A DNA stretch of 64,000 nucleotides from the IMG/VR virus record IMGVR_UViG_3300037502_002993, positions 62,001-126,000 of that record, one strand, 5' to 3'. Within the stretch, counting starts at the first letter, position 1, and every line of letters begins with the position of its first letter. The DNA comes from a virus. This document shows, one piece after another, positions 30,550 to 63,573 of the stretch. The position numbers and the translations under genes are program-made. Under the pieces are notes generated by a model, which was not told where the DNA came from, did no database searches, and saw only the letters and a program-made list of their open reading frames with translations.

Positions 30550-30690
30550 TTGACACTCCCCTTCTTAAAAGAAGGGGATTCTTGCTTCACAGAACTGACT
30601 TACCTTCGGTAAGGAAGGCAGAGGCCACTTTCTCCACAAGCGTTTAGTGAGTCCGTATGCCCTACGGCCTCTGCTAAAGCCACTGTTCAA
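30550..30690 (-). ncRNA. omega-RNA / right end of the tnpB element, copy B
   Basis: Begins inside the last tnpB codons and runs to the right-end hairpin. Contains GCAGAGGCCGTAGGGCATAC, a TTACCGAAGGTAA stem-loop and AATCCCCTTC/AAGAAGGGG. TnpB nucleases use such 3'-end RNAs as guides, with the targeting part being the sequence just beyond the right end (GCAATGAAACCG on the minus strand). Two further near-copies without tnpB are at 19215 and 33816. Confidence 0.7.
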
Positions 30691-31904
30691 GCAGTGAGGT
30701 GGTGTTCTTGGATGAACACCGCTGTGAGTGTTTGTCTTAAATGACTGGTGGGCGGTAGTTGTTCCAGAGCCATGGTCCTTAAGTTGATGGCCGCGTTGTG
30801 ATCGCGATCATGCGTGGTCTTGCAAGAAGGACAATCCCACCAGCGTTGGTGTAGCTTGAGCTTCAGTTTCCCCTCTAAACGATGGTTACACGCACTGCAG
30901 GTCTGAGTACTGGGAAAGAATCGTTCCGCAATGACGACCTTGCAGTGCTGTGACTCATCGGCCTTGTAGACCAACTGAGTCAGGAACTGCCGCCATCCAC
31001 AATCAGCAATGTGTTTAGCGAGTCTCCTGTTCCTGACCATACCCTCAATATTGAGGTCCTCAATAGCAATAGTCATGCATTGGTCTACAAGGCTTCTAGA
31101 AAGCTTGTGCTGAAAGTCCATCCGACACCGCTTGGTTTTTGCGTATATCTTGGCGACTTTCAGCCTCTGCTTTCTGTAGTTGGCACTGCCTTTGACTTTG
31201 CGTGATAGATCGCGCTGTGCCCTCGCCAGTTTCCTGGCATACTGCCCTTGGTATTTGGGTTTGGCATACTCCTTCCCTTCTGAGTCTACCGCAAAGGTCT
31301 TAATCCCTAAGTCCGATCCCAAATGAGACTCCCCATTCGTGAGTCGAGGTTCACATTCACAAATGAAACAAGCATAATACTTACCATCAGACTCACGAAT
31401 GATACTACAGGAAGAAGGTTGGGTGGGGAGTACCCCACCCCATTTCTCGTTCTTGTAACTCCATTTAGTTTTGATGGGGGACTGCATGACTTTCGCCATG
31501 CGGAAATCCCCTGTTTCTAGATTTAAAGTAAAAGCAGCCTTCGTCAGTCGGATGGACTGACGACTGACCCGCTTCTTGTACTTGGGAAATCCAATCTTCC
31601 CTTTCCCTTTGAAAAAGGATTGGAAAGCAGTCCCTAGGTCCCGTAGGGACTGCTGTAGGATGACGGATGAAACCTCATAGAGAAACCCAAACTCATCTTT
31701 TAGTTCGGGAAGACGGTAGGTGAGTGCATTTGCACTCAGTTTGGGTTTCTCTAATGTTGGGTCCGTCTGGTAGGCTTTGTATTCCTCTTGTACCCTACCC
31801 AGTACCTGATTCCAGACAAACCGTTTACAGCCAAACGACCTCACCAGGAGGTCAGTTTGCATGGCATTCGGATAGATCCGAAAACGAAATGTTTTCGTTG
31901 CCAT
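30687..31904 (-). CDS. tnpB: TnpB, RNA-guided nuclease of IS200/IS605 type
   Basis: 405 residues, full family length. MATKTFRFRIYPNAMQTDLL and CKRFVWNQ are typical N-terminal signatures. The RuvC-like core looks intact: Asp198 in LGSDLGIKTFAVD, Glu282 in IAIEDLNIEGM, and Asp366/368 in HDRDHNAAINL, with a zinc finger of Cys336, Cys339, Cys358 and Cys361 (TCSACN...CPSCK). Known members cut DNA matching their omega-RNA guide, which maintains the element. With no tnpA, it may persist as a homing-type nuclease in the phage. The 3' end overlaps the omega-RNA. Confidence 0.9.
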   Translation of the reverse strand: MATKTFRFRIYPNAMQTDLLVRSFGCKRFVWNQVLGRVQEEYKAYQTDPTLEKPKLSANALTYRLPELKDEFGFLYEVSSVILQQSLRDLGTAFQSFFKGKGKIGFPKYKKRVSRQSIRLTKAAFTLNLETGDFRMAKVMQSPIKTKWSYKNEKWGGVLPTQPSSCSIIRESDGKYYACFICECEPRLTNGESHLGSDLGIKTFAVDSEGKEYAKPKYQGQYARKLARAQRDLSRKVKGSANYRKQRLKVAKIYAKTKRCRMDFQHKLSRSLVDQCMTIAIEDLNIEGMVRNRRLAKHIADCGWRQFLTQLVYKADESQHCKVVIAERFFPSTQTCSACNHRLEGKLKLKLHQRWWDCPSCKTTHDRDHNAAINLRTMALEQLPPTSHLRQTLTAVFIQEHHLTA

Positions 31905-31984: not shown

Positions 31985-32899
31985 TCATCCTCCACCTGAA
32001 GGAGGAGGCTTTATGACCACTGGGTAACCTGACGTTTGGTTGGGATCGGCATCACGCAGCGGGGGTTTCTTTTGTGTAATGATCTTGGGTAATGTTTTAA
32101 CTAACACCTTTTCCATTTTGGTTCTTGGTTTGCCAATGGCTTTCAGCCACTCTTCTGGCGTAAGGTTCCTTTTTATTGAATTACAGGTCTGGCAGGATAG
32201 AGTGGCGTTAACTTCTGAGTTAGATCCACCCCTAGACTTGGGGATCTTGTGCTCCCATTGGAGAATTTTATCCCCACTAACTCCAAGGCAGTATTGGCAC
32301 GTATGGTTGTACCTGTAGAGTAGATACTCACGCATCTCGGTACCGAAGAGCCTGCCCTTCTGATATTCTTTGTCTTTGATACCAGGATTCTTCAGTAAGT
32401 GGGTATCAAACTTTACCTCTTCGACCTTGGCGCTGGTGATGGGACACCAGCGCATGAAGCGATCGATCCAAGTCTGGGTAGTGAGTGCTCGATGTTGGAT
32501 GGAGGGTGGAAGCCACCCTTTAGGTCTAGCGCGGTTCAAGAACCGCGCGGGACGATACCGGGTTTTCCTAGAACGACGAGATCGGCGATACATTGCTCGG
32601 CTAGCCAAACGCTTACGGATCACCTGACCGCGATGCACTAGGTTAATTCCTAACACGCATCGGTCCCCTCGCTTATCGTGAGAGATCACGGCAATCCCGG
32701 TGGTCTTCGAACCAGGATCAATCTGAATGGAAAAGTTATTCCTGATTGGTCCTTTCGGGACATAGTTCAGAATGATAATGAATGGGTACCGTCGGAAGAC
32801 GGCGGCTTTGCCCTTGCGTAACAATTCCCGAGCACGTGCTGGATGACACGGTGCTAAAGGAATTCGATTGGCGTCTAGCACCAATACGTAATTTGACAT
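31985..32899 (-). CDS. iscB: IscB-type HNH/RuvC nuclease, C-terminally truncated
   Basis: 304 residues; intact IscB is usually 400 or more. N-terminal RRXRR/PLMP-type region (MSNYVLVLDANRIPLAPCHP, ARELLRKGKAAVFRR), RuvC-I IQIDPGSKTTGIAV (Asp61), Arg-rich bridge helix (RRSRRSRKTRYRPARFLNR), RuvC-II VEEVKFD (Glu160/161), and an HNH domain with CQYC, QWEHKIPKSRGGSN and CQTCNSIKRN. The frame then loses similarity soon after KKPPLRDAD, so the RuvC-III His/Asp motif and target-binding domain are missing. The last residues (KPPPSGGG) are encoded by the left end of the tnpB element. It might still nick through HNH, or be inactive. Confidence 0.8.
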   Translation of the reverse strand: MSNYVLVLDANRIPLAPCHPARARELLRKGKAAVFRRYPFIIILNYVPKGPIRNNFSIQIDPGSKTTGIAVISHDKRGDRCVLGINLVHRGQVIRKRLASRAMYRRSRRSRKTRYRPARFLNRARPKGWLPPSIQHRALTTQTWIDRFMRWCPITSAKVEEVKFDTHLLKNPGIKDKEYQKGRLFGTEMREYLLYRYNHTCQYCLGVSGDKILQWEHKIPKSRGGSNSEVNATLSCQTCNSIKRNLTPEEWLKAIGKPRTKMEKVLVKTLPKIITQKKPPLRDADPNQTSGYPVVIKPPPSGGG

Positions 32900-33105: not shown

Positions 33106-33750
33106 TCAGCATTCCCGGAAGGGGACTCCAAGTTGATGGAGGGTGTTACTGACAATATCGCTAACCGTGCTCTTGGTGGTGTCATGACAAAGGGCCGTGT
33201 GGTTACCTGCCTTCTGCAATCGTTGCCGGGCAAACAGGTGACGCCTTTGATCGAGGGTTGTGTCATCTAAGACGTCCAACCGATTGATATCTTCCCGATC
33301 ACGAATCCGCTCACGGATGGTGGCGTTGTCCGCGTCCAGGTAGAGCGTCAGATTGGGAGGAACAATAGGTACCCACCCCAGGCCCTTTGGGGTAGTGTTA
33401 GCAATCAGGGTATCAAGTGTCGGGTTGTTGTCACCCTGATAGACATAGGTGGTATCGAGGTGACGGTCACTGATCACCCACCAGCCTTCATCCACTAGCG
33501 GTTTGATGACCTTGGTCAGGTGCTCCCACCGCTGGGCCTGCATGATAAGAATCTCCGTCTCAGGACACAGATCGGTGTAGCGAAACAGTAACGATCGGAT
33601 CTCCTCACCGAATGGGGTCCCTCCGGGTTCTTTGGTGAGGGTGGCCTTATGACCCAAGCTGTTTAGAGCATCTCTTAACGCCCTAGCAATAGTGGACTTA
33701 CCTACGCCATCCTGCCCTTCGATGATAATGAACCCACCTGATGGTGTCAT
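33106..33750 (-). CDS. tmk: thymidylate kinase
   Basis: 214 residues, the normal family size. Phosphorylates dTMP to dTDP. P-loop EGQDGVGKST (residues ~10-19), KEPGGTPFGEEIR (dTMP-binding loop with the conserved EPGG), and the DR-type motif ISDRHLDTTYVYQG (~93-106) followed by the lid region TIRERIRDREDINRLD. With dCTP deaminase it suggests the phage boosts the thymidylate supply. It lies between the iscB and omega-RNA elements, so this locus has collected insertions. Confidence 0.9.
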   Translation of the reverse strand: MTPSGGFIIIEGQDGVGKSTIARALRDALNSLGHKATLTKEPGGTPFGEEIRSLLFRYTDLCPETEILIMQAQRWEHLTKVIKPLVDEGWWVISDRHLDTTYVYQGDNNPTLDTLIANTTPKGLGWVPIVPPNLTLYLDADNATIRERIRDREDINRLDVLDDTTLDQRRHLFARQRLQKAGNHTALCHDTTKSTVSDIVSNTLHQLGVPFREC

Positions 33751-34206: not shown

Positions 34207-34620
34207 TCAGATCGCGTCAAACAGTTCCTGTACGGCCTTCATGGCTTTGTTGGTATCCGCCCGATTGGGCTCTTTCCAACTGGCCACAGCCCGCACGCTT
34301 TCTTCGCCCTTCTCCGGGGAGCGGTTGAAGAACAGATCCTGCTCCATGTAACCTACCTTGTAGGACAGGGAGAGTTCTTTACTCTCCCCGTTCTCACGGA
34401 AGTGATCGCGGGCCAGTTCACCGGCAGCAAGCACTGTACCGGAGAGAACCTCTTGGTTGTGCTTTTGCAGCTTCTTCACCTGCTCAAGCGTCAGACCCTC
34501 GGGCAGGGTGGCCTCATAGTAGTCATCACTGACGTCAATGGTACCGGTCTTGGCATTGACGGTCAGCTTGTCTTTGAGGCCGAACTTTTCTGCATGGGCT
34601 TGGGCTTTCAGTGTGGACAT
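34207..34620 (-). CDS. hypothetical protein, 137 aa
   Basis: MSTLKAQAHAEKFGLKDKLT with AAGGAGTAACTCCGCA before ATG. Soluble, charged helices, with one beta patch (KELSLSYKVGYM). No family recognised. Monocistronic: promoter motif 80 nt upstream, terminator downstream. The pattern suggests an abundant early protein, but the function is unknown. Confidence 0.6.
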   Translation of the reverse strand: MSTLKAQAHAEKFGLKDKLTVNAKTGTIDVSDDYYEATLPEGLTLEQVKKLQKHNQEVLSGTVLAAGELARDHFRENGESKELSLSYKVGYMEQDLFFNRSPEKGEESVRAVASWKEPNRADTNKAMKAVQELFDAI

Positions 34621-35406: not shown

Positions 35407-35967
35407 TTATCTAGAAAGTGCCATTCCGATGGTGGCGTTGACTCGTGCCATTGCCATATGAAAACCCACTGGCATGCGAGTAGCCTTCACTTTACGCAGG
35501 AAGGCGTGTTCCTCACGATACGCTTCTTGTTCCCACTCGCTGTCCATGTAGTAATCAGCGTCCTTCTTCAGCCTTGACTTATCGATTTCCACGCCTTTCC
35601 AGTACATGTCAGAGATCTCCCCTCTGCTATCAAACGCCACAGTGAAATCCCCACGACGCCACTGGAACCAGTGAACAGTCTCGTGAAAGACACTCCCTGC
35701 ACGGAGTTTGGGATTACTGGTGTCGATGACAATAACGGGCACTTCTTTATCACCCTCCTTGATCACCGTGAACATAGCCGCCATCCCGGGTATGTCCGTG
35801 GCGTAGAGCTTCCCCCCGCAGCGCAGAAAGAGATGCAGGCGTGCGGCTTCCTCTGCATAAAGGGAAGCTAACGCACTCTCAACATTCGCCTTGTTGAAGA
35901 ACAGGCGATCAGCCACCATGACGTTAACGGTAAAACCACTAAGGGTGTAGGTGGTATCTTGAAACAT
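35407..35967 (-). CDS. putative small zinc metallopeptidase (HExxH)
   Basis: 186 residues. HETVHWFQW at ~95-103 is a zincin-type HExxH motif preceded by a hydrophobic helix start (LRAGSVF). The later WEQEAYREEHAF could supply the third ligand Glu. A preceding VPVIVIDTSN strand fits the edge strand seen in such folds. No signal peptide, so it would act in the cytoplasm or particle. The family cannot be named. The single motif could be chance, but the context is consistent. Confidence 0.5.
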   Translation of the reverse strand: MFQDTTYTLSGFTVNVMVADRLFFNKANVESALASLYAEEAARLHLFLRCGGKLYATDIPGMAAMFTVIKEGDKEVPVIVIDTSNPKLRAGSVFHETVHWFQWRRGDFTVAFDSRGEISDMYWKGVEIDKSRLKKDADYYMDSEWEQEAYREEHAFLRKVKATRMPVGFHMAMARVNATIGMALSR

Positions 35968-36480: not shown

Positions 36481-36876
36481 ATGCGTGAACTTCACGGCCA
36501 CAAAGTCAATCCCGCCAACGATACCGTGACTATTAAAGTCACTGATGAGCCCGGCCAGGGTGGTGCCAACCACCGTTATGAGATCTCTGGTTTTAATACC
36601 GAGACTAATGCGTCTCGGTTGGACCATGATGGTAACCGTCAGCAAGTCAACCTCCTGTTCCAGAATGGTCCCATTCCTGAGTTCGGCGTCAACGGTATCA
36701 CTCACGAGGTACTGTTGGCCATCCTAATTGACCGTTTGCAGGGTTTCCAGAACGGCCCCTATGCCTGTCGTGAAAACGCCCTTGCGTTAACGAAACTACA
36801 AGAAGCGCAAATGTGGCTCCAGTCCCGCACTCGCGAACGAATGACCAGGGGTGTAGAGGGAACTCACGAAAAATAG
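36481..36876 (+). CDS. Tad1/Acb2-family anti-defence nucleotide sponge (putative)
   Basis: 131 residues, plus strand, AAGGAAA 6 nt before ATG. The N-terminal half is beta-type (HKVNPANDTVTIKVTDEPGQ, GGANHRYEISGF). The C-terminal half matches the helical hairpin of the Acb2/Tad1 family: FQNGPIPEFGVNGITHEVLL, IDRLQGFQNGPYACRENALA, LTKLQEAQMWLQSRTRERMT, ending RGVEGTHEK. Tad1 proteins bind gcADPR signals of Thoeris and some also bind CBASS cyclic nucleotides, blocking the host alarm. It is isolated from neighbouring minus-strand genes, as accessory anti-defence genes often are. Ligand cannot be told from sequence. Confidence 0.7.
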   Translation: MRELHGHKVNPANDTVTIKVTDEPGQGGANHRYEISGFNTETNASRLDHDGNRQQVNLLFQNGPIPEFGVNGITHEVLLAILIDRLQGFQNGPYACRENALALTKLQEAQMWLQSRTRERMTRGVEGTHEK

Positions 36877-36950: not shown

Positions 36951-37115
36951 AATCCTTCTAGATACTCCGACAAACAGACCATTATCATCGTCACGAAAAA
37001 CAACGAACGCCTGGATATTCGCGATACGAACGATGTGGACTTCACGTTTGGCTTCATTAATTCTGATGCGTGGGAGTTCTACGTTGGTGATGACGACCCC
37101 CGTAACAATCGCTGA
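36951..37115 (+). pseudogene. C-terminal gene fragment, no start codon
   Basis: A 54-residue open frame with protein-like composition (DKQTIIIVTKNNERLDIRDT, then NDVDFTFGFINSDAWEFYVG and DDDPRNNR) but no ATG, GTG or TTG start with a ribosome site; it opens directly after TAG. Upstream lies a CCTTCC/GGAAGG hairpin following the Tad1-like gene. Likely the remains of a gene whose 5' part was lost. Use of a non-standard start cannot be excluded. Confidence 0.4.
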
Positions 37116-37554: not shown

Positions 37555-40221
37555 TCAGGGTTTGGTTTCGTCATCCGTGTCGTCACCGGATTCCTCTTCA
37601 CCAGATTCCTCATCACCACTCTCTTCCTCTGGTGTTTCGTCCTCCTCTAGCTCACCGCCCTCCTCAGATTCCCCTTCCTCATCAAAAGAGACGTCGTCAT
37701 CGGCAACGTCTTCCTCCGGAGTGTCGTCATCCATACCGGCGGTATCGGAGAAGTCGTCACCACCCCCTGCGGCTTCTTCAAGCTTGGCTTTCTCCTCCTC
37801 CCATTTCTTACGCCGCTTGTCTACCGATTTCAGGTACTTCTGAATGGCCTTACCCACCGACCCCATCAGTCCATCCTGAATCTCCAACAGGTTAAAGCCC
37901 GGACGGGTAGGGCCTTCCATCTCAGTGAGCTGGGTCAGTTCAGGGAGGATGTTATTCTTCTCCATCCAGACCCGCATGTAGTAGCTACGGATTACCGCAA
38001 TGACGTTACGCACGGCGTCGGGTTCTGCGGCAAGCATCTCCGGTGTGAAAAGGTCTTCAGTGATGTGGGATTCCAACGCCCGGTCAAGCAGTTGGGCATG
38101 CTGTTCCAGTGCTACGAACTGAGCATCCTCTTTGGTGGTATCTGGAGACGGTAGAGAAAGTTCAATGGCATCAATAAATCCATCAATCAACTCTTCCCCG
38201 TCACCCTCCTGAGTAAAGACTTTACGCTGCTCTGGCGTCAGTTTGGTCTTATGCTCCTCTAAGGTCTTGGTAAGACTCTCCATGAGGATAGACGAATGCC
38301 GGATATAGAGCCGAACGAACTTTGTCAACCATTGACAGAACTGCTTCTGGCGCCGAATCACTCGACGGGCCAGCATCAGGTTATTATTGACCACTGAAGT
38401 AGCGAAGTCGGGAGACTGGGTGGGGTCTACCTGCTCAGGATTGAGCCCGTAAGATGAGATCTGCATGCGCCTTAAGCGGTCTTCAAGCTCAGGGTTTCCT
38501 GCCTGCACGTTAGTGGTGTAATCATCAAACTCCACTTTCGTGTTTGGGTAGTTATCCCCTTCTATGTTGATCTGAAAATCATACCCGGCTCGGTGCAGAT
38601 AATCCAATGTCTGACCTGGATCAGGACTTGCCAGTGGGAAGCCACGTGCAGAGGACTCAAGGATCAGGTTCTGGATGTCACTGATGTCTTTCTCAGGATC
38701 AAGCGAGTCAGCATCGGGACTAATGGAGACCCGCTTACGCCCAATGGCATTGCGCACCCCACTCATGGTGTCAGCAAACAGCAGCACACTGCGCATGGAG
38801 GCGATGATTTCCGTACGGGTCACCAGTGAGCGACCAATCCCGAACTGACTGTAGTCATACGCCATATAAACCACGAGTTCTTCCGGGATATAGATCAGTT
38901 GGGTCTGCTGTGCTTTCAATGCCCGGTAGAGCATGATCTCCTGGATCGCTTCCGTCATCCCCAGCGAGAACTCTTCCCGGTAGAGTCCGTTGCGCAGACG
39001 GTTCAGTAAGTCATTCTCCAGGATTTTAGAGTAGGCATTATTGATCTGCTCAATATCCATGTCACGGTTTCGTGTGACGCCACCAAACGCCTCTCGCGCT
39101 AGCTTAACAATATCACTGGCGTTATCGTTACCCGTCCCTTGATAGGTAGAGCGGATCTCATTGTAGTAATCCCGTGACCCATCCCGTACAACAGGGCGTG
39201 AGTTCTCATCCAGGAGAAGGAAGTACCCAACATGATCTTCCGGCTGTCCCGGAGTAAAGACCGGAATCACGGACTCTACGGGAAGCTTCATTACCAGGGG
39301 GTGCCCCACTGAGGGTCGGGACATGTACTCTTGGGGAACCACGGTGTGCGTGGGGGTGTTCGGGTGGTCCTTGTGATAGAGCTTATCGATCTCCTCAGGG
39401 GACAGACCTTTTGCCTGTGATTCTAGCCCCACAGACTGTAACTTCCGATTGTGTGCGGTAATGGTCTGAGAGATTACCTTTCCCCTCAGGCGCTTACGCA
39501 TGTTCGGGACTTTAAGGGTTTCGAAGTTATCAGAAACACGCAGGTGGGGAATGACATGGGACTTCCCCTCTCCTGAGTTCACTCTCACTCGCTCATCGTA
39601 ACGCTGGGTGTCGCTATAATGCTCCATCCCAACCCCAGGCGTTATCGAACTGCCAAGCAGCCCCAATGGCTGTCCTTTCTCAAAGCGTTGGATCACATGA
39701 CCAAATGCCTCGGTGCTCACATGTCGTGATCCAGCGTTAATGATCATATCGAGGTTGTTTTCAGGTAGGACGGCTTGAATGTAGGCCCCTTTCGTGAAAA
39801 GAATCTCGGTGAGCATGGCATCAAGTTTCTCATCAATGCGATACTCTTTCTTGAAATGGGTTTTCACCACTTCAAGAAAAGGACCGGCAATCTCTGAGTG
39901 GTACTCTCCCTCACGAATGGCAAAGCCGACATCAGCGGTGGAAAGATCCTTAGGGGAGAGGATACTTCCCACTAAGACCTGCTCTGCCAATTCAATATCA
40001 GGTAAGAGCTGATAAATGCCATCAATACTGGCCAGCTTCTGTCCCGTTTCTTTAGAGAGTCCTTCAAAAAGATCCTTACTGATATTAACCCGTCTGGCCT
40101 CAGCGGGCGCCTTGGGGTCATGGGGATCAACGGTAAGCTTTGACAGTAGGGCTTTGGTACTTTCTGGGGTTTTGCGCTCTACACTCAACCGACTGAATTG
40201 GCGCGTGGGTTTGCGGGCCAT
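37555..40221 (-). CDS. portal-like protein, 888 aa
   Basis: The portal ring is the entry gate for packaged DNA. Starts MARKPTRQFSRLSVERKTPE behind AGGAG. The core has features of large-phage portals: ELVVYMAYDYSQFGIGRSLV, then TRTEIIASMRSVLLFADTMS and VRNAIGRKRVSISPDADSLD, and a long C-terminal helical region with LMLARRVIRRQKQFCQWLTK. The last ~90 residues are extremely acidic, with a Glu/Asp/Ser-rich low-complexity tail (DEESGEEESGDD). An acidic tail this long is unusual and may contact DNA-binding partners. Assignment is by pattern only. Divergent from 40258-42399 with a ~36-bp gap. Confidence 0.6.
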   Translation of the reverse strand: MARKPTRQFSRLSVERKTPESTKALLSKLTVDPHDPKAPAEARRVNISKDLFEGLSKETGQKLASIDGIYQLLPDIELAEQVLVGSILSPKDLSTADVGFAIREGEYHSEIAGPFLEVVKTHFKKEYRIDEKLDAMLTEILFTKGAYIQAVLPENNLDMIINAGSRHVSTEAFGHVIQRFEKGQPLGLLGSSITPGVGMEHYSDTQRYDERVRVNSGEGKSHVIPHLRVSDNFETLKVPNMRKRLRGKVISQTITAHNRKLQSVGLESQAKGLSPEEIDKLYHKDHPNTPTHTVVPQEYMSRPSVGHPLVMKLPVESVIPVFTPGQPEDHVGYFLLLDENSRPVVRDGSRDYYNEIRSTYQGTGNDNASDIVKLAREAFGGVTRNRDMDIEQINNAYSKILENDLLNRLRNGLYREEFSLGMTEAIQEIMLYRALKAQQTQLIYIPEELVVYMAYDYSQFGIGRSLVTRTEIIASMRSVLLFADTMSGVRNAIGRKRVSISPDADSLDPEKDISDIQNLILESSARGFPLASPDPGQTLDYLHRAGYDFQINIEGDNYPNTKVEFDDYTTNVQAGNPELEDRLRRMQISSYGLNPEQVDPTQSPDFATSVVNNNLMLARRVIRRQKQFCQWLTKFVRLYIRHSSILMESLTKTLEEHKTKLTPEQRKVFTQEGDGEELIDGFIDAIELSLPSPDTTKEDAQFVALEQHAQLLDRALESHITEDLFTPEMLAAEPDAVRNVIAVIRSYYMRVWMEKNNILPELTQLTEMEGPTRPGFNLLEIQDGLMGSVGKAIQKYLKSVDKRRKKWEEEKAKLEEAAGGGDDFSDTAGMDDDTPEEDVADDDVSFDEEGESEEGGELEEDETPEEESGDEESGEEESGDDTDDETKP

Positions 40222-61830: not shown

Positions 61831-63573
61831 ATGACACCATTGATTCGTAAGTTTCCCTTAGACCGGACTGGTGAGAATCCCAACAACTTGGTGTTGGGGG
61901 AGCCGCACGAACTGGCAGACAATGGTCGTGACGGCATGCGGGTGTTCGTACCTCAGTACGGTGCCTTTTACACTCAGAGCCTGGTGATTCGGGATGCCAA
62001 CGGCATCACCCTTGCCCCTCACTCCGACTACATCGCCACCTACTACTACGAAGACGCGTCGACGATGAGCGGCCTTGAGGTATGTGCGGCGATTGTCGTC
62101 CTCAATCCGAACATCCCCTCCCCCGTCTCCATTGACTATCAAGTGGTGGGGGGTGACCATGCGTTCTCCACTACCGCACTTGCAGAAGTCCTGGAAACGC
62201 TCCGTGACAACGAACAGCCCGTCCAGTGGGCCAGCATTGTCGGTAAGCCCACCATGTTCCCTCCTGGTGGTCACCTACACGCCCTGTGGGAGCTGTATGG
62301 CTTTGAATACGTCACTATCCAGCTGGAGCGGATGGTCCGTGCCATTCTGGTGGGTGATCAAGCGACGATGGATGAGATCCGCGCCTACGCCCTACGTCTC
62401 CATGAAGACGGCATTGACTACACCGACGCGCTTGATTCGCGTTTCCAGGATCACTTAGCTGATAGTAGCAATCCCCACAGTGTTACCAAAGCACAAGTGG
62501 GTCTTGGGAGCGTACCGAACTGGCCTGGTGCTAACCAAACCGAGGCACAGCAAGGAGACCGCAATGACCGCATTATGACACCCCTGCGGACCGCTCAGGC
62601 GATTACCACGCAAGCCCTGACGCCTCTTAATGCCCACGTTAATAACACCAACAATCCCCACAGTGTTACCAAAGCACAAGTGGGTCTTGGTAGTGTTCCC
62701 GACTGGCCAGGGGCCACTCAAGCTGAGGCCGAGTCCGGCACACGCAATGACCGCATCATGACCCCACTGCGGACTGCCCAAGCGATCTCCACCCAGGCAC
62801 TGGCTCCTTTGAACTCGCATGTTCAGAACACCAACAATCCCCACAGTGTTACCAAAGTCCAAGTCGGGTTAGGGAGTGTTCCCGACTGGCCAGGGGCCAC
62901 TCAAGCTGAGGCCGAGTCCGGCACACGCAATGACCGCATTATGACTCCCCTACGTAATGCCCAAGCCTTCCCGAGGCGATTTAATGAGCAGGTGCAGAAT
63001 GGCTTTTCCATGCCCAGAAACCAAGACAACTCCACCTTGTCTTTTGGGTCGTGGAATAATGACGGTGCGTTTATACGTCACCGGTCCCCAGATAACAATA
63101 GTGCGTTTTTAGACCTTTCCTGTGGTAATACTACAACGGGCACAAGTCGTAAACTTCAGTTTGGTGGCGGTACCACCAATAATTTTTCCTCCTGGTTAAC
63201 CCTTGATCACGACCTCGCATATTTCACCGGACGTATTAACGCCGTTGATTATTATGTCCGTTCTGATGAACGTTATAAAACTAACCTACGGCCCATTGAC
63301 GATCCACTTGGACGACTTGCTGGGATTGAGGGACTGTTTTATGAGTTCATTGACGACGAAAGTCACGCGGCGGGGTTGAGTGCACAACAACTACAGAAGG
63401 TTCTTCCACAGGCAGTTCGATCGGTTATCGACGATGATGGAAAAGATCGATTACATATCAACCATGGCGGACCTATTGCCCTTTTGGTTAGTTCAGTTAA
63501 CGCACTTCGTGAGATAGTAGATAAACAGAGTGCAGAAATAGACCGTTTGAAAGAGTCAGTGGGGGAACGGTAG
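61831..63573 (+). CDS. tail fibre with S74 autocleaving chaperone domain, 580 aa
   Basis: Attachment module (LIRKFPLDRTGENPNNLVLG), three SNPHSVTKAQVGLGSVPxWP repeats with RNDRIMTPLRTAQAI segments, a middle beta region, and a C-terminal peptidase_S74 domain from ~residue 476: VRSDERYKTNLRPIDDPLGR with the Ser478-Asp479 dyad, LFYEFIDDES, GLSAQQLQKVLPQAV, then the coiled-coil end VNALREIVDKQSAEIDRLK. S74 domains fold the trimer and cut themselves off. Last recognised complete gene in the window. Confidence 0.85.
   Translation: MTPLIRKFPLDRTGENPNNLVLGEPHELADNGRDGMRVFVPQYGAFYTQSLVIRDANGITLAPHSDYIATYYYEDASTMSGLEVCAAIVVLNPNIPSPVSIDYQVVGGDHAFSTTALAEVLETLRDNEQPVQWASIVGKPTMFPPGGHLHALWELYGFEYVTIQLERMVRAILVGDQATMDEIRAYALRLHEDGIDYTDALDSRFQDHLADSSNPHSVTKAQVGLGSVPNWPGANQTEAQQGDRNDRIMTPLRTAQAITTQALTPLNAHVNNTNNPHSVTKAQVGLGSVPDWPGATQAEAESGTRNDRIMTPLRTAQAISTQALAPLNSHVQNTNNPHSVTKVQVGLGSVPDWPGATQAEAESGTRNDRIMTPLRNAQAFPRRFNEQVQNGFSMPRNQDNSTLSFGSWNNDGAFIRHRSPDNNSAFLDLSCGNTTTGTSRKLQFGGGTTNNFSSWLTLDHDLAYFTGRINAVDYYVRSDERYKTNLRPIDDPLGRLAGIEGLFYEFIDDESHAAGLSAQQLQKVLPQAVRSVIDDDGKDRLHINHGGPIALLVSSVNALREIVDKQSAEIDRLKESVGER
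62640..62960 (+). repeat. two nearly identical ~180-bp DNA repeats inside the S74 fibre gene
   Basis: AACACCAACAATCCCCACAG, then GACTGGCCAGGGGCCACTCA and GCTGAGGCCGAGTCCGGCAC occur at about 62643-62755 and 62826-62938 with very few differences. A third, more diverged copy starts at ~62460. The near-identity indicates recent duplication or gene conversion. Confidence 0.65.

Follow-up and report, generated by a model that had tools for sequence, protein, structure and literature searches.

Within the 64,000-nucleotide window analysed here (positions 62,001 to 126,000 of IMG/VR record IMGVR_UViG_3300037502_002993), an intact gene encoding a Tad1 protein of 131 amino acids lies on the plus strand at 36481..36876. 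Tad1 proteins are known phage sponges for the small molecules with which bacteria signal antiviral alarm. The gene starts at an ATG, the first ATG, GTG or TTG of its open frame, with GAAGGAAA a short way 5' of it; the frame and the C-terminal motifs named in a preliminary description of this DNA are both found there. That description had also called it the only intact plus-strand gene between 27.0 and 40.2 kb, and tad1 is indeed the sole supported one in this interval, the remaining plus-strand frames of the non-overlapping list being short, unsupported and opened by TTG or GTG. A consensus scan for promoters and terminators around tad1 gave no excess over shuffled sequences. On the same strand, 36951..37115 is an open frame with no ATG, GTG or TTG start, which we discuss below as the 3' remnant of a Tad2-like (DUF2829) gene. 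The conserved neighbours of tad1 lie on the minus strand: a thymidylate kinase gene (tmk; 33106..33750; Pfam Thymidylate_kin, E 7e-32) and a phiKZ gp186-like gene (34207..34620; 46% identity to a 137-aa protein of the related record L005 and 23% to PHIKZ186). A further minus-strand gene near tad1 (35407-35967) encodes a 186-aa protein that has no Pfam match and carries an HETVH motif of the kind seen in zinc metallopeptidases.

Judged by its gene content, the record belongs to a nucleus-forming phiKZ-like phage, since it encodes an 888-aa PHIKZ129-like virion structural protein (37555..40221, minus strand; 45% identity to PhiPA3 gp148 over 90% of the query; phrog_3004, E 2.5e-234), the Pfam phiKZ gp28 vertex and gp29PR proteins, both within the window, and a homologue of the nuclear-shell protein gp54 (36% identity, E 1e-88). 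At 220.6 kb the record is probably a fragment. L005 is a second phiKZ-like record, with a PHIKZ129-type protein 56% identical to that of the window. The window also holds an IscB-type gene (31985-32899, minus strand; RRXRR and HNH, 304 aa) and, beside it, a tnpB gene (30687-31904, minus strand; OrfB_IS605 and Cas12f1-like TNB, 405 aa).

The preliminary description had placed the protein in the Acb2/Tad1 hairpin family; Pfam, solved protein chains and fold all agree with this and point specifically to Tad1. Its sole Pfam family is Acb2_Tad1_hairpin (PF24729), matched at 30.4 bits against a curated cut-off of 27 in a check set beforehand. Searches with phmmer matched the solved chains of CmTad1 (8kbb, E 7e-24) and CbTad1 (7uav, E 1e-15) as well as phiKZ gp184 (E 9e-21), while a profile built from 67 relatives found the CbTad1 chains at 3e-26 and gp184 at 2e-24. 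These matches are far above chance, and the protein is a real Tad1, for which Tad1 and not Acb2 is the right name. Relatives of it were found in 137 phage records and in 80 or more viral-contig loci; a DNA-level search of the phage collection found no near relatives. Several Tad1 homologues (for example L003:5001-5402, and others in public records) are labelled 'ABC transporter ATPase' or 'HNH endonuclease', which masks the family.

An AlphaFold2 model of the monomer, based on an alignment of 67 sequences, reached a pLDDT of 89.5 and a pTM of 0.80. It has the Tad1 architecture of an N-terminal beta-sheet domain followed by two long C-terminal helices, with strands at residues 2-4, 17-23, 30-36 and 55-60 and helices at 75-91 and 97-123. 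The predicted two-helix hairpin is thus present, and each of the 20 PDB structures matched at E<=0.001 is a Tad1, among them the ligand-bound 7uaw, 8smd and 8kbf (TM to target <=0.77); no Acb2 structure was matched at this threshold. The hairpin (residues 76-123, encoded by 36706..36849 on the plus strand) carries F89, N99, R116 and R120, which are equivalent to F82, N92, R109 and R113 of CbTad1, where F82 and N92 are reported to line the gcADPR pocket in the 2022 Tad1 study. Across the close relatives of the window protein F89 and R120 do not vary and N99 and R116 hardly do, and the C-terminal tail is conserved, as are all pocket positions examined. The gene differs from that of its nearest relative, L005, by 23, 13 and 76 substitutions at codon positions 1, 2 and 3, which indicates that the protein is under purifying selection. 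These findings bear on the idea that the Tad1 fold has been kept while binding of immune signals has been lost, leaving a structural or decaying relative with another job. Such a loss would fit the broken state of the adjoining Tad2-like gene, the appearance of phiKZ gp184 as a separate chain in a PDB entry (8y6v_I), and the labels given to homologues, gp184 being called structural in phiKZ and a Lactococcus homologue 'structural protein'; against the conservation of every pocket position tested and of the C-terminal tail, and purifying evolution at the protein level, we regard it as very improbable.

The closest solved counterparts are the free-standing sponges CbTad1 (7uav, 7uaw, 8smd) and CmTad1 (8kbb-8kbd), which resemble the window protein in sequence, fold, length and the F82/N92/R109/R113 positions; they are only 32-36% identical to it in structure alignments and are prophage-borne, whereas the window gene belongs to a phiKZ-like giant phage. 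Among isolated phages the best matches are the free-standing Tad1 proteins of Agrobacterium phage OLIVR5 and Rhizobium phages IG49, IC12 and LG08 (53-54% identity over 97% of the protein), but these phages are not placed with the phiKZ-like phages and their tad1 genes have other neighbours. Tad1 of SBSphiJ7, the founding member, shares the pocket positions and is 58% identical over residues 48-131, but comes from a Bacillus phage, and its N-terminal half is too diverged to fall within the tblastn alignment. Within the phiKZ-like phages, phiKZ gp184 and PhiPA3 gp217 have the Tad1 domain (35% identity over 98% of the window protein) and are likewise encoded near thymidylate kinase. Tad1 is therefore already known from phiKZ as gp184, and the window gene extends it to another phiKZ-like lineage.

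In a tree of 86 Tad1 rows the window protein is paired with that of L005 (100/91), and the pair sits within a 77-row group of mostly free-standing Tad1 proteins (95/95), apart from the group formed by phiKZ, phiHQ, PhiPA3 and Noxifer (98/93). The alignment has few columns and the tree long branches, so that distant rows are unsure; the branch leading to the window protein itself is short. The placement speaks for an exchange with phages that lie outside the phiKZ group rather than for vertical inheritance from gp184, and suggests that the tad1 lineage of the window was acquired from such phages.

The position of tad1 recurs across the phiKZ-like phages. In phiKZ it is gene 184, with gp182 upstream and thymidylate kinase a few genes further on; in phiHQ, PA1C and Noxifer it stands immediately ahead of thymidylate kinase, and in PhiPA3 downstream of a gp182 homologue. 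L005 has, on a single strand, a gp182-like gene, a gene for a 106-aa protein, tad1, a gene for a 101-aa NAD-ligase-Ia-like protein, one for a 77-aa Tad2-like protein, one for a 167-aa protein, a gp186-like gene and tmk. In the window the gp186-like gene and tmk are still near tad1 but lie on the opposite strand, and roughly 54 kb of the record separates tad1 from the gp182/183 homologues, which indicates that the locus has been rearranged; the ligase-like gene of L005 is missing from it. In L005 that gene (L005:6386-6688), between tad1 and the Tad2-like gene, encodes a stand-alone DNA ligase NAD+-binding Ia domain (PF22745, 34.5 bits, cut-off 27) with relatives in Vibrio and Pseudomonas phages, and could be a candidate for a further NAD-related counter-defence protein.

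The proteins of the phiKZ group differ from that of the window at the N-terminus. phiKZ gp184, which falls in the other clade, begins with MSKPNLEWLASLE and has an extension of about 100 aa with a prohead-protease-like motif, SLE-13; the Tad1 proteins of phiHQ and PhiPA3 start much like it, with SVE and SLE, respectively, at residue 11. The phiKZ prohead protease cleaves after S/A/G-X-E, and gp93 is cleaved at SLE-13 (PMC5694885). The gp184 protein has been validated as injected and tied to the inner-body proteins (PMC10449902), and, according to a review, phiKZ injects its Tad1, which blocks both CBASS and Thoeris (PMC13282480). On its sequence, the gp184 extension appears to be a capsid-packaging tag. 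The window protein lacks an extension of this type: the Tad1 domain begins at the first residue, with no in-frame start codon upstream, and a search with the N-terminal region of gp184, run without a positive control, gave no match. The idea that the window protein is, like gp184, packaged in the head, injected and active ahead of phage gene expression would fit the injection of gp184 with its tie to the inner body (PMC10449902) and the shared gene neighbourhood of tad1 in phiKZ and L005; the extensions of gp184, phiHQ and PhiPA3, however, end in S-X-E type motifs resembling prohead-protease sites (PMC5694885), whereas the window protein has none and opens at the Tad1 domain, and we consider virion delivery unlikely. 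For a Tad1 without an N-terminal extension, production after infection is the more plausible reading, and the window protein is probably made then and not carried in the virion.

The start-less frame downstream of tad1 had been described as a decayed gene, and this is borne out by its 62% identity, along 54 residues, with the C-terminal portion of the 77-aa protein encoded by an intact gene downstream of L005 tad1; the N-terminal third of the gene is gone in the window. Neither the remnant nor the L005 protein directly matched PF11195 (Tad2, DUF2829), and nothing in the window's own record did, so the Tad2-like label rests on intermediates. In gut-phage homologues that share 36-43% identity with the L005 protein, the corresponding domains reach 25.0, 23.5 and 16.6 bits, where the Tad2-like cut-off is 25; a second, clear Tad2-like domain is present in two of these homologues. 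A single-sequence fold of the L005 protein reached a pLDDT of only 57.6, and the best match of the A1 profile to Tad2 structures had an E of 1.5. With moderate confidence, we take the remnant and the L005 protein to be Tad2-like. The adjoining remnant lends modest support to the earlier idea of an anti-defence island. Among the 80 viral-contig relatives listed, some with short loci, a Tad2-like or NAD-ligase-like neighbour was seen in L005 only, so the pairing with tad1 is not general. It is plausible that L005 has a pair of sponge genes that is partly decayed in the window phage, where loss of the Tad2-like gene may reflect relaxed local anti-defence pressure. The remnant suggests that sponge genes can occur together, and be lost, at the tad1 locus.

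Direct evidence covers family membership, fold, conserved pocket positions, purifying selection and the absence of a gp184-type extension. Taken as a whole, the locus is very probably best explained by a soluble Tad1 sponge, made after infection, that captures immune signals. In this model the gene would yield soluble Tad1 once infection has begun, and the protomers would assemble, as into the hexamer of solved relatives. The conserved pockets would take up gcADPR isomers made by TIR proteins and, probably, the cyclic nucleotides of CBASS too; Tad1 homologues differ in ligand choice, according to review text. The signal would thereby be kept from its effector and the infected cell spared abortion. 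We infer the oligomer, ligands, timing and activity in the host.

There is perhaps an even chance that nucleus-forming phages deploy one sponge from the same genome neighbourhood by two delivery modes: packaged and injected with a capsid-targeting extension (phiKZ, PhiPA3), or free-standing, from another lineage and necessarily made post-infection (the window phage and L005), with a Tad2-like partner in L005 that has decayed in the window phage. The interest of the window Tad1 lies in its missing packaging extension, its separate lineage and the Tad2-like remnant. Together the phiKZ-type and window-type proteins offer a natural comparison of whether the sponge must be brought in by the virion to overcome Thoeris or CBASS, or whether post-infection synthesis is early enough.

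Other arrangements of Tad1 were seen in further phages. In Burkholderia phage FLC9, gp131 (L002:7377-8393, 338 aa) is a fusion of a cyclophilin peptidyl-prolyl isomerase (Pfam E 2.5e-44) with a C-terminal Tad1 domain that shares 50% identity with the window's; the fusion is covered in full by no other phage record. Neither G000 nor the record of L005 gave a match to Acb1, in a search in which no control responded either. Phages OBP (L109:1396-2193) and LAh10 (L110:1384-2203) carry a diverged short Tad1-like gene followed directly by a homologue of the anti-CBASS protein Acb1 (PF23474, E 2e-13 and 8e-15), labelled RNA ligase.
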